A stretch of DNA of 64,000 nucleotides from positions 186,001-250,000 of the forward strand of contig NZ_CP016543.2 of the NCBI RefSeq assembly GCF_001687665.2, written 5' to 3'. Position numbers and translations under genes: made by a program. Below are positions 11,740 through 23,867 of this stretch, in pieces. The number at the start of each line of letters is the position of its first letter. Position 1 is the stretch's first letter. The notes under the pieces were generated by a model that was given only the letters and a program-made list of their open reading frames with translations, had not been told where the DNA came from and ran no database searches. The stretch is from Planococcus donghaensis. Its GTDB lineage: Bacteria > Bacillota > Bacilli > Bacillales_A > Planococcaceae.

Positions 11740-11800
11740 AGTAGAGTCGGTTTACGGCCACTGAAAAAGGAGGATAGAAGTAGAGTGAGAGGAAAACAAT

Positions 11801-11972
11801 TATAGCGCCTGTACTAGAGAAATTGGACGGACAAGTCATCTCTAGTAGACGAGGAGAAGGAGTATCGAATTTTCGGCGGATCCCTTCCGGCCATGAAGCC
11901 TGGTCGTGATGTCCATTCTTAAAACAGTCGAGTGATCGATTGGCCAACAAGATGGATAGGCTCATCACTTAT
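11801..11972 (+). ncRNA. glmS ribozyme-riboswitch
   Basis: This glucosamine-6-phosphate-activated self-cleaving RNA lies in the glmS leader. The cleavage-site sequence ATA/GCGCC puts the cut between 11804 and 11805. P2 is ACTAGAGA (11813-11820) with TCTCTAGT (11839-11846). The invariant core ATCGAATTTTCGGCGGAT is at about 11864-11881, and AGTGAT (11931-11936) pairs with ATCACT (11964-11969) as P4. Cleavage destabilises glmS mRNA when GlcN6P is plentiful, closing a feedback loop on the downstream enzyme. Confidence 0.95.
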
Positions 11973-20652: not shown

Positions 20653-20673
20653 TTGTTACGGAGGGAGTCGGAC

Positions 20674-21129
20674 ATGAAAATTCAAACAGAACAATTCGGA
20701 GAAATCGAACTAGCAGAAGATCGTGTCATTACATTTGATAAAGGAATTCCAGGATTTGAAGAGGTTAAAGACTATGTATTAATCCAAGCAGACGCAGAAG
20801 GCGAATCGCCATTCTTTTTCTTGCAGTCGGTAGAACACGTGGAAGTGAGCTTTTTCTTAGTCGATCCATTTACGTTTTTCAAAGACTATGACATTAAACT
20901 AGAAGAGCAAATGGTGGAGCGACTGCAGTTAGAAGAGCCGACTGACGCCATTGTCTTAACAACGGTAACAGTCAAAGGTGACATTAGCAGCGCAACAACA
21001 AACTTAAAAGCACCACTTGTGATAAACAATAAAAAACAACAAGGCATGCAAATCGTGTTGAACAATAAAGACTATCAAATCAAGCAGGCGTTATTTCAAG
21101 CAGACAACACCGCTGCAAGGCAGGTGTAA
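20674..21129 (+). CDS. fliW: Flagellar assembly factor FliW
   Basis: This 151-residue FliW binds flagellin and, when free, antagonises CsrA, so flagellin level controls its own translation. The family N-terminus MKIQTEQFGEIEL, the FDKGIPGFEEVKDYVLI stretch and the FFFLQSVEHVEVSFFLVDPF core are present. The start is ATG 20674 behind GGAGGGAG. Next come csrA (3 nt gap) and hag, the complete FliW-CsrA-Hag control unit. Confidence 0.95.
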   Translation: MKIQTEQFGEIELAEDRVITFDKGIPGFEEVKDYVLIQADAEGESPFFFLQSVEHVEVSFFLVDPFTFFKDYDIKLEEQMVERLQLEEPTDAIVLTTVTVKGDISSATTNLKAPLVINNKKQQGMQIVLNNKDYQIKQALFQADNTAARQV

Positions 21130-21132
21130 ACG

Positions 21133-21357
21133 ATGCTAGTACTCGGACGCAAAAAAGGCGAAACCATCGTCATCAACGACGACATTGAAATCACGGTAAC
21201 TTCGATCGAAGGCGACATGGTGCGTCTTGGCATTAACGCACCAAAGCAAATTACCATTCACCGAAAAGAAGTGTATTTAGAAATTCAAGAAGAAAACAAA
21301 CAAGCCACGTCAAATGTTATTAACTTGAGTGATTTTTTGAGTATGCGAAAAAAATAG
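21133..21357 (+). CDS. csrA: Translational regulator CsrA
   Basis: This 74-residue RNA-binding repressor starts [22 protein letters not shown] and carries the [15 protein letters not shown] core with the RNA-contacting Arg. CsrA dimers bind GGA motifs and block translation of hag. A hairpin with ACGGAG in its loop covers the hag ribosome binding site (21510-21525). It lies directly after fliW and has its own terminator before hag. Confidence 0.96.
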
Positions 21358-21530: not shown

Positions 21531-22355
21531 ATGATTATTAATCACAATATCGCAGCACTAAACACACACAGACAAATGGGCAATGCACAAAGTGCACAAA
21601 TGGGTAATATGGAAAAGTTATCTTCAGGACTTCGTATCAATAGAGCGGCAGACGATGCAGCTGGACTTACAATTTCTGAGAAAATGCGCGGGCAAATTCG
21701 TGGATTAGAACAAGGCTCTCGTAATGCTCAAGATGGTATTTCAATGATTCAAACTGCAGAAGGTGCTTTAAGTGAAACTCATGATATTCTTCAGCGTATG
21801 AGAGAGTTAGCTGTACAATCAGCATCAGATACTAATACAGCTGATGATAGAGCGCAAATTCAAAAAGAAAATGCTGCTTTAATTACAGAGATTGATCGAA
21901 TTGCAACGACAACCGCTTTTAACACTCAAAAATTATTGAATGCAACTGGCGGTACTGCTGGGGTATTCTCAATTCAAACCGGAGCTGAAGCAACACAAAA
22001 GATGGATTTGACTTTTGCTGATATGCAAGCAACTGCATTAGGAGTTAATGCTGTTGATTTAAGTACAAGTGCAGCAGCATCTTCAACTGCTATCACAACA
22101 ATTGATGCAGCGATCAAACTGGTTTCAGACGAACGCTCAACTATGGGTGCAAATCAAAACCGTCTAGAACACACAATCAACAACTTGAATACATCTTCTG
22201 AAAACCTAACAGCTGCGGAATCAAGAATCCGTGACGTTGACATGGCGAAAGAAATGATGGAACAAACGAAAAATTCGATTCTTGCACAAGCATCACAAGC
22301 AATGCTGGCTCAATCCAATCAAATGACTCAATCAGTATTACAACTGTTGAGATAA
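21531..22355 (+). CDS. hag: Flagellin Hag, continuous reading frame (exon 1 plus intron-encoded tail)
   Basis: Flagellin is the filament subunit, secreted by the flagellar export apparatus. The conserved N-terminal D0/D1 (MIINHNIAALNTHRQMGNAQ, GLRINRAADDAAGLTISEKM) and C-terminal D1/D0 (AESRIRDVDMAKEMMEQTK, NSILAQASQAMLAQ) are present around a short variable centre; 274 residues is compact. Exon 1 ends at 22310, after codon 260. Reading on into the intron gives QSNQMTQSVLQLLR and a stop; splicing instead gives join(21531..22310, 22682..22726) with tail QANQAPQQVLQLLR. Both products are 274 residues. Regulation is read as a SigD promoter plus CsrA control. Confidence 0.95.
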   Translation: MIINHNIAALNTHRQMGNAQSAQMGNMEKLSSGLRINRAADDAAGLTISEKMRGQIRGLEQGSRNAQDGISMIQTAEGALSETHDILQRMRELAVQSASDTNTADDRAQIQKENAALITEIDRIATTTAFNTQKLLNATGGTAGVFSIQTGAEATQKMDLTFADMQATALGVNAVDLSTSAAASSTAITTIDAAIKLVSDERSTMGANQNRLEHTINNLNTSSENLTAAESRIRDVDMAKEMMEQTKNSILAQASQAMLAQSNQMTQSVLQLLR

Positions 22356-22681
22356 TTGGTTTTAGGGCGTCTGACCGGGTAACGGGTTAGAGTACAACTG
22401 GGTGAATTGCTGGAACTTCCTAAAGCCCCATCAACCACAACGTAACTGGAAACGGTCGGCGTGACGGTTTGAAAATGATGAGGATGCACCAATGGATAAT
22501 CAGCAGCCAAGCTCCTGTGAGGAAACTCTGGGGAAGGTTCAACGACTAGGATAAACCGTCTAAGGCAGAAGCTATGGCGATGAAATCCGTAGGGTGGCAA
22601 GCGCCATTCGAAGTGCCCAGCCCCTCAAATGTGAGGGTGAAGATATAGTCTATTCTATGATCGAAAGACATAGTGGCAAAG
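22311..22681 (+). ncRNA. Group I self-splicing intron (subgroup IA type) in hag
   Basis: This 371-nt intron has a core that can be drawn by hand. P1 is exon CTGGCT (22305-22310) with guide GGTTAG (22385-22390), giving the U-G pair at the 5' splice site. P3 is CTGGGT (22398-22403) with GCCCAG (22615-22620). P4 is TTGCTG (22407-22412) with CAGCAG (22501-22506). P7 is GACTA (22544-22548) with TAGTC (22646-22650). P8 is CCCTC with GAGGG (22622-22637), and P9 is CTATG with CATAG (22655-22673). The terminal G is 22681. The long stretch between P7 5' and P3 3' fits the P7.1/P7.2 insert of subgroup IA. P1 carries a 74-nt loop that holds the alternative flagellin tail. No ORF lies in the core. Confidence 0.9.
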
Positions 22682-22726
22682 CAAGCCAACCAAGCACCAC
22701 AGCAAGTACTACAATTGCTACGTTAA
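22682..22726 (+). CDS. hag: Flagellin exon 2 (C-terminal 14 residues and stop)
   Basis: Fifteen codons encode QANQAPQQVLQLLR and TAA, the canonical flagellin D0 C-terminus. They are in frame with exon 1 after removal of 22311-22681. There is no start codon or ribosome binding site, so the segment only makes sense as a spliced exon. Confidence 0.88.
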   Translation, partial: QANQAPQQVLQLLR

Positions 22727-22737
22727 TTTTAAGAAAT

Positions 22738-22768
22738 CAAAGGAGCCTGAATTTAGGCTCCTTTTTCT
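22738..22768 (+). terminator. hag terminator
   Basis: AGGAGCCT (22741-22748) pairs with AGGCTCCT (22755-22762), followed by a T-run. It lies after exon 2, consistent with the pre-mRNA including the whole intron. Confidence 0.9.
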
Positions 22769-22784
22769 ATAAGGAGGCGAGTCC

Positions 22785-22961
22785 ATGGATATCGCTGCGT
22801 TATCAATGGCCATGAGTCAGGCGAGCATGAGAACTGAAGCGAATGTTTCGGTGATGAAAAAGACGATTGATCAAGCGGAAACGAATGGTCAAGAGGTTGT
22901 AAAGATGCTTGAGCAGTCTGTTCAACCTCATATGGGAAGTTCAATTGATTTTAGAGCTTAA
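22785..22961 (+). CDS. YjfB-like putative motility peptide
   Basis: This 58-residue protein, MDIAALSMAMSQASMRTEAN..., ends MLEQSVQPHMGSSIDFRA and matches the YjfB-type family of small putative motility proteins. AAGGAGGCG precedes ATG 22785. It lies right after the hag terminator and before its own bidirectional terminator, among flagellar genes. No function is established from the sequence. Confidence 0.7.
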   Translation: MDIAALSMAMSQASMRTEANVSVMKKTIDQAETNGQEVVKMLEQSVQPHMGSSIDFRA

Positions 22962-22965
22962 TAAG

Positions 22966-22998
22966 GAAAAGGATCTCATGTTTTTGAGATCCTTTTTT
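22966..22998. terminator. Bidirectional terminator
   Basis: AAAGGATCTCA pairs with TGAGATCCTTT around a short T-rich loop, with A and T runs on the outside. It serves the YjfB-like gene and, on the other strand, the endonuclease pseudogene. Confidence 0.85.
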
Positions 22999-23867
22999 CA
23001 ATCTAAATATGGAAATGTAGCATTAGTTTTTCGTAACTCTCTCCATTTATAAACAACAGACCAGTAAGTGCGGTTTAAGTGAGAAGCTATTTCTTTATCT
23101 GTTTTTCCTTCCTTTTTCATTTTGAATATCATCTCGCATTCTTCGTTAGTATAATTTTTATGTCGATCTGAAGAGCTCACAATTACTTCGTATTCTGGAT
23201 GAGATTCTTGGTAACGAGCTATTTCTTTTTGAAAACGAAAATTCTAATCTGTTTTGTGGTACATAGAGGGACAGTCTTTTGAGGCATCACCAACTATTTT
23301 CAAGAATTTCATGGTTTCACTCACTTTTATCGTTTTTAATATATAACCAAAGCCATCAGGTCTCTTACTAGTATTAAATTCGACCGCTAAATGAGTAGTG
23401 ATATGCAATTTCAATTTGTCTAAATCTTCAAAGGAAAAAGATTGTAAGTACAAGTAAATATGAGGTGTTAAATAAATAGTTTTCTTTCTTTCATTTTTAC
23501 TAACAGAAATGGACAGTGAGCCGTCATCTAAATACAAAGTCGTGAGAAATAAAGGGGATTTACATAGCTCAAGCATTGTTAATGAGATAATTTTATCTCC
23601 ACTGGAATTGTAAAAGTGATCAAACATTTGTGTTAACAAGGGAAGCGATGGAGAAAGAAGCAAAGAATTTGATTGGTTAAAGTAAAAAGTAGAAGGCAGT
23701 AAATTCAATTTCCAAATTCGGTAGTCTAATTGTTGAATACTAAAATGTTCTCAGTAACTATTGTTTTTTCGGCGAGAACCTGGATATCTTTTGGTAATTT
23801 CTCCATCTCCTAAAATACTTGCAATTAAGACATTTTGTTCAGTAGAAGTTAGAGAGAACAAATTCAT
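22998..23867 (-). pseudogene. LAGLIDADG homing endonuclease gene with two in-frame stops
   Basis: One minus-strand frame runs from ATG 23867 (AGGAG upstream) to TGA at 22998, about 289 codons, broken by TGA at 23751-23753 (codon 39) and TAG at 23244-23246. The N-terminus has the first LAGLIDADG-type helix (LIASILGDGEITKR, then SRRKNNSY*EHFSIQQLDYRIWKL). The second, LTTLYLDDGSL, is of the LAGLIDADG_2 type. The C-terminus (NYTNEECEMIFKMKKEGKTD, IASHLNRTYWSVVYKWREL) looks like a helix-turn-helix DNA-binding tail. The frame is otherwise intact, so decay appears recent. It probably spread with or alongside the flagellin intron, but it lies outside the intron on the opposite strand. Confidence 0.85.

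Follow-up and report, generated by a model that had tools for sequence, protein, structure and literature searches.

Introduction

Self-splicing introns in bacterial protein genes are usually deemed tolerated because they remove themselves. In the group I introns of such genes, an in-frame stop codon soon after the 5′ splice site is usual (excerpts of PMC3073962 and PMC3984707). Flagellin genes with group I introns are known in thermophilic Bacillus and Geobacillus (Hayakawa and Ishizuka 2009, 2012, as cited in an excerpt of PMC3984707). In the psbA gene of cyanophage S-PM2d, a group I intron displays condition-dependent splicing (excerpt of PMC5931967). The group II intron C.te.I1 resides in a surface layer protein gene of Clostridium tetani where, according to an excerpt of PMC3919590, precursor and spliced mRNAs encode isoforms, with the unspliced RNA being the most abundant.

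The intron described here interrupts the flagellin gene hag of Planococcus donghaensis and, like the usual early-stop introns, has a stop codon just past its 5′ splice site. In those introns (and in introns at another flagellin site, site A, see below), nothing resembling a gene end precedes the stop, whereas most of the introns at the present site, site B, contain a complete C-terminus, apparently under selection.

The hag gene and its two ends

The window (the whole stretch of 64,000 nt that was analyzed) contains the following features around hag, with the exact intron borders taken directly from the window sequence.

20653..21357, + strand: fliW and csrA, flagellin regulators, directly upstream of hag (fliW ORF 20653–21129, csrA 21133–21357)
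21531..22310, + strand: hag (flagellin) exon 1, from the ORF, codons 1–260, ending ...AUG CUG GCU at the splice site
22311..22681, + strand: group I intron, 371 nt, final base G, following GGCU
22311..22355, + strand: intronic tail, 14 codons QSNQMTQSVLQLLR and TAA at 22353–22355, in the frame of exon 1
22682..22726, + strand: exon 2, QANQAPQQVLQLLR and TAA
22739..22764, strand not assigned: terminator-like stem 3′ of exon 2, from a simple scan of 22200–23020

The unspliced hag product is above the Pfam cut-offs for both Flagellin_N and Flagellin_C, and the two upstream ORFs are above those for FliW and CsrA. The Rfam model Intron_gpI (RF00028) matches 22344–22673 with 71.6 bits, above the gathering score of 50; this match is the only one in the whole genome at E 0.001 or better. 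Elsewhere, the genome contains a second flagellin-like gene (a distant match, 28%), and the window a glmS ribozyme-riboswitch at 11793–11967 (110.3 bits, Rfam).

The intron sits 45 nt before the end of the gene. Without splicing, the ORF 21531–22355 encodes 274 residues, ends with ...MLAQSNQMTQSVLQLLR before the stop, and reads as a normal complete gene. Spliced hag also encodes 274 residues and ends with ...QANQAPQQVLQLLR. Thus, the second complete tail of identical length that a preliminary description had placed at the 5′ end of the intron is present to the base, and precursor and spliced mRNA each encode a full-length flagellin, as it had claimed. A script recovers the likeness reported there between the two tails (29 of 45 nt, 10 of 14 residues, and different codons at 6 of the 10 shared residues). 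The C-terminal peptides, ...SNQMTQSVLQLLR and ...ANQAPQQVLQLLR, are distinguishable from each other.

The scan calls the terminator-like stem on the minus strand, and the plus strand likewise presents a stem followed by a T run. It is the single site found in 22200–23020; this simple scan detects no terminator from the intronic tail to exon 2, and the intron and exon 2 should therefore share one transcript.

Distribution of the intronic tail

Relatives were first gathered by a DNA search (60 genomes, 29 with a match) and by a pattern scan for the intron end followed by exon 2 (at least 117 stretches). Among the matches listed, 107 introns are at the same point, the AMLA site, with both exons parsed, and all but three (L017, L053, L058) open with the tail; the 107 include L043 and L149, doubtful as introns. 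Further loci come from a covariance model restricted to the guide, P2 and P3, in which both tails are ignored. The model was trained on 46 loci, most of them from the pattern scan, which demands the exon-2 tail and not the intronic tail. It matches 50 of 398 genomes in the class Bacilli, 123 of 397 in the order of genome G216 (in 55 of 135 genera), and 10 of 391 in the class of a Clostridium genome. The loci retained from the G216-order search are 28 new automatic ones and 60 hand-picked regions, chiefly with at least 58 bits, among the matches listed; the weaker matches, with scores like those of site-A introns, lie outside the counts.

Flagellin introns occur mainly at two sites, the AMLA site of the window intron (site B) and a second one before MAKEMM (site A). 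Among the matches listed, the survey comprises 170 distinct introns, with 121 at site B, 43 at site A, and 6 elsewhere (in L212, L313, and L315, no intron was parsed). Alignment with homologous introns had been proposed as the check on the tail; among the matches listed, 116 of the 121 site-B survey introns keep it, complete and in frame, versus none of the 43 at site A. With the window and four centre loci picked beforehand (L241–L244), all omitted from the survey count, the site-B figure becomes 121 of 126. This conservation rules out a chance origin of the intronic tail. The site-A introns listed stop after a few codons, with ..AA, ..VA, ..AV, or ..VS before the stop codon. Both introns occur together in genomes of the same genus (L005–L009, L011–L013, L033), and the window gene has no site-A intron.

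When all site-B introns examined are taken together, window included, 191 distinct loci share the insertion point and a homologous core, and 184 of them carry a complete tail, of exactly 14 codons in 183 and of 15 codons in one. The tail-bearing named records cover 37 named genera across Bacilli, Clostridia, and Tissierellia. Homologous introns without an intact in-frame tail, which would have spoken against the preliminary description, amount to seven (L017, L037, L053, L058, L121, L190, L233); in L053, the tail is still recognizable and holds two stops. In a quick and partly unresolved tree of intron cores (in which rows L035, L037, L050, and L061 are labeled site A and are actually site B), five tailless rows are scattered and need five changes. 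Such a scatter fits losses and not a tailless ancestral form; the tail thus probably arose early in the history of the family, with several later losses.

Some site-B introns are enlarged (L134, L311, L104, and L137, at 472 to 604 nt); in their three forward frames, the longest open stretch does not exceed 49 codons. In a search of phage DNA, the core of the window intron (22392–22548) resembles phage introns, with matching stretches in Staphylococcus, Flavobacterium, and Listeria phages, for example 76.4% over 22405–22548 for one Flavobacterium phage.

Selection on the two tails

The selection tests use the 169 loci of the first pattern search, all with both tails intact and with introns up to about 560 nt, either thinned to 68 diverse loci or matched into 73 close pairs; tailless and decayed loci are thus absent from these tests. 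In the close pairs, among which no locus recurs, 222 synonymous versus 81 nonsynonymous differences separate the intronic tails, or a pN/pS of 0.109 (0.060 for codons 6–14), with 0.053 for the exon-2 tail and 0.094 for the end of exon 1 as comparison regions. In the 68 diverse loci, the values are 0.274 for the intronic tail (0.155 for codons 6–14), 0.115 for the exon-2 tail, and 0.212 for the end of exon 1; in the two shifted frames of the intronic tail, pN/pS rises to 0.83 and 3.15. The third codon position is the most variable in these 68 loci (0.522 vs. 0.286 and 0.120), and without the condition of an intact tail (186 loci, tailless and decayed ones included) the diversities at the three positions are 0.30, 0.14, and 0.51. 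By these measures, the intronic tail evolves as a coding sequence under purifying selection on its amino acids, and the long-term selection on protein sequence suggested in the preliminary description is recovered in close pairs and diverse loci alike.

Structure of the P1 and P2 regions

The 5′ part of the intron is organized as follows.

22317..22322, + strand: 5′ strand of the extended P1, AAUCAA, tail codons 3–4
22356..22361, + strand: 3′ strand of the extended P1, UUGGUU, adjoining the stop codon
22327..22351, + strand: apical hairpin, tail codons 6–14, predicted fold of 22327–22336 with 22343–22351 and one bulge
22365..22368, + strand: internal guide GGGC, pairing in the predicted fold with GCU/C across the 5′ splice site, with a U–G wobble 22310/22366
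22370..22390, + strand: P2 hairpin, the 3′ strand of which had earlier been taken for the guide

The guide had been put 29 nt after the stop codon; the real one is at 9 nt, with the former segment being the 3′ strand of P2. The GGG of the guide is invariant in the 46 aligned loci, and the spacer between stop and guide is 7–12 nt in 63 of 68 loci, with a full range of 7 to 44 nt. In the same 46 loci, 97.3% of the cells of the P2 hairpin are paired, and for each of its eight pairs there is a locus in which both bases are changed. The 12-pair structure, although derived from the very alignment on which it is scored, has a covariation of 0.612 versus 0.199 after shuffling (0 of 500 shuffles reach the score). 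The tail does belong to the P1 domain, as previously described, but not as an open loop, since its bases contribute to the P1 stem and to an apical hairpin. The codon of residue 5 (22323–22325) is outside both pairings, in the window as in relatives.

For the extended P1, the two strands of a given locus pair with an energy of −6.4 kcal/mol in the 68 loci versus −3.3 with exchanged partners (0 of 10000 permutations as low). The apical hairpin we hold with moderate confidence. Under synonymous shuffling, the mean folding z is −1.17 for intronic tails versus −0.58 for exon-2 tails, and at codon 12 leucine is written CTN in 63/68 versus 29/68; taken one by one, only 15 of the 68 loci rank among the best 5% of their shuffles, and no pairs emerge from a consensus fold of all 68 intronic tails.

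The covariation in the extended P1 and a codon choice that favors the hairpin are what one would expect if only the P1 stem and hairpin were conserved as RNA, with the likeness in protein inherited incidentally from a duplicated exon. This reading is very unlikely, and as a sole explanation it is rejected on the pN/pS and frame tests, with third positions the most variable and shifted frames unconstrained. Also, the tail keeps its 14 codons in 183 of 184 loci despite the variable spacer that follows the stop, its residue 14 tracks that of exon 2 (see below), and the site-A introns as well as seven site-B introns manage without an intact tail.

Likenesses and differences between the tails

Exon 2 ends with Q or G in place of R in 11 loci, and in all of them the last intronic residue is the same one. 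At position 8, the intronic residue is identical in 9 of the 11 loci where exon 2 has no G. On the quick intron-core tree, position 14 gives seven independent pairs, on average 6.6 concordant and none opposed (median p 0.016), and position 8 gives five (median p 0.125), which is not significant after correction for relatedness. At third codon positions, the identity of the two tails is 0.421 when they come from the same locus and 0.409 when they come from different loci; these nearly equal values indicate that the tracking of residues does not come from recent copying. Positions 7 and 14, counting back from residue 304, are Q297 and R304 of the B. subtilis Hag. In that protein, FliS is wrapped by residues 275–300, and swarming is almost abolished in variants, Q297A and R304E among them, at residues that face away from FliS (excerpt of PMC6070490).

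Single loci fit the view that the gene end was recently duplicated, or converted, and has no function. In L075, sequence resembling the 3′ UTR of the gene itself (z 8.1, 40 shuffles) comes after the intronic tail, the mark of a local re-duplication of the gene end, and in L149 the two tails are identical in DNA. As a general explanation this view is scarcely credible: in the 68 loci, tails of the same locus average 71% DNA identity with a maximum of 82%, their third positions are no closer than between loci, and the tail spans Bacilli, Clostridia, and Tissierellia. For the family, then, the earlier statement that the duplication is not a fresh one holds, L075 and L149 being exceptions.

The N-terminal part of the tail behaves differently. 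The two tails of a locus agree at position 5 in 18/68 and at position 2 in 34/68. Position 2 is S in 35/68 intronic versus 1/68 exon-2 tails, and residue 5 is Q in 55/68 exon-2 versus 13/68 intronic tails (the rest being mostly L, M, A, S, I, and T). Such systematic differences would suit a regulated switch between isoforms, in which splicing varies with temperature or growth state, the tails differ in binding to FliS or FlhA or in filament properties, and the intron tunes export. The title of a paper on flagellin introns of thermophilic Bacillus, as cited in an excerpt of PMC3984707, contains the phrase "temperature-dependent self-splicing," and light-dependent splicing of a group I intron is described for a cyanophage (excerpt of PMC5931967). 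We nevertheless consider such a switch unlikely: positions 8 and 14 covary toward tails that are alike, which argues for equivalence and not contrast (with only position 14 significant when relatedness is allowed for), and the differences at positions 2–5 fall partly in or beside the P1 pairing.

Conservation of the splicing signals

In group I introns, the U that ends the 5′ exon pairs with a G of the guide, and the last base of the intron is a G. The window intron has both features, the U–G wobble 22310/22366 and the terminal G. All 184 tail-bearing loci have a T as the last base of exon 1, whereas in genes with a site-A but no site-B intron the same base is T in 17/27. The exon-2 tail could be parsed in 181 of the 184 loci, and in all 181 the last intron base is G. 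To judge from these bases, the capacity of site-B introns to splice is kept alongside the tail. Intron lengths fall freely into the three classes modulo 3 (43, 60, and 78 loci), so that the frame of the precursor is ended by the intronic stop and not continued by read-through.

A dead intron, with the intronic tail as the true gene end and exon 2 as a fossil, would describe L043 and L149: by eye, a terminator-like stem follows the first tail, the core beyond is degenerate, and the second tail lies 600–900 nt farther on. Thanks to the spare tail, these two loci appear to have kept the gene while the intron died. For the family, this is highly improbable in view of the invariant T and G at the splice sites, the pN/pS of 0.053 in exon 2, and the scan without a terminator between the two ends in the window. 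Taken together, the coding-type evolution, the tracking of residues, and the conserved splice-site bases indicate that both tails are very probably translated.

A probable fail-safe role for the spare tail

The spare segment is in frame, of near-fixed length, selected as protein, matched to the host at two variable residues, and folded into the P1 domain. We consider it probable that the intron holds, inside P1, an alternative last coding segment of the host gene, with as its main effect a fail-safe that would make flagellin output independent of splicing; such a fail-safe appears to be the most likely role of the spare tail. Bacterial ribosomes trail the polymerase, and some would arrive at the splice site while the ~370-nt ribozyme was still incomplete or unfolded. 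These early ribosomes would continue past the splice site, finish the protein with the spare tail, and terminate 9 nt before the guide. Once they have left, P1 could form, the intron would splice, and later ribosomes would add the exon-2 tail. From either form of the RNA, ribosomes would thus make flagellin of 274 residues whose D0 tail, wrapped by FliS, is complete, and the device would serve an abundant, assembly-critical protein.

In the preliminary description, translation of the unspliced RNA was thought to spare the core. With the guide 9 nt after the stop, a terminating ribosome would probably cover it, and translation of the tail and splicing should therefore alternate on each molecule.

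Several observations qualify the fail-safe. A site-A intron, which has no spare tail, is also present in 51 of the 145 tail-bearing loci with enough upstream sequence, so that the fail-safe would be incomplete there. The persistence of site-A introns without a tail implies that a truncated product is tolerated to some degree, and the 7/191 site-B introns without an intact tail imply that the spare tail is not indispensable. Against the fail-safe, one can also put the drift of intronic residues 2–5 away from the exon-2 tail, as pure redundancy would predict drift only where RNA pairing constrains.

With a different tail sequence for each form of the mRNA, regulation is possible. Going further, a mobile ribozyme family might have domesticated its own insertion by carrying a spare host-gene end in its splice-site helix, with the ratio of spliced to unspliced RNA (set, for example, by temperature) deciding between two flagellin tails with different export or filament properties; this we offer tentatively, as unlikely.

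Comparison with known systems

In the widespread site-B family, removal of the intron need not matter to the protein, since the intron would supply an equivalent end. At the level of sequence, a bacterial gene here possesses two alternative final coding segments, both apparently kept by selection. Such introns are easily overlooked because a gene finder that ignores introns sees a normal flagellin gene, and the flagellin ending deduced from a genome may differ from that present in the filament. Cultured, motile bacteria allow a direct test of the proposal, and other introns near gene ends could be searched for in the same manner. In the open-licence literature searched, we did not find a conserved, protein-selected spare gene end in a group I intron.

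Some mobile elements bring a replacement gene end with them, such as the integrases of tRNA genes and fungal mitochondrial elements with a substitute C-terminus. The site-B intron shares with these elements the replacement end, but they act at the DNA level, whereas with the site-B intron both ends seem to remain in use through splicing.

The flagellin introns of thermophilic Bacillus and Geobacillus, known here through the citation in an excerpt of PMC3984707, are likewise group I introns in a bacillar flagellin gene and probably belong to the same family. The psbA intron of S-PM2d, like the window intron, belongs to group I and interrupts a protein gene; according to the excerpt of PMC5931967, its unspliced RNA is unlikely to give a functional D1. 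A parallel in output is C.te.I1, which, as described in the excerpt of PMC3919590, gives an isoform from each form of the RNA, as would the site-B intron, known here from its sequence. According to the same excerpt, C.te.I1 is a group II intron with several downstream exons and five distinct isoforms in one organism; the site-B intron, by contrast, belongs to group I and offers two near-equivalent tails of 14 residues in many genera.
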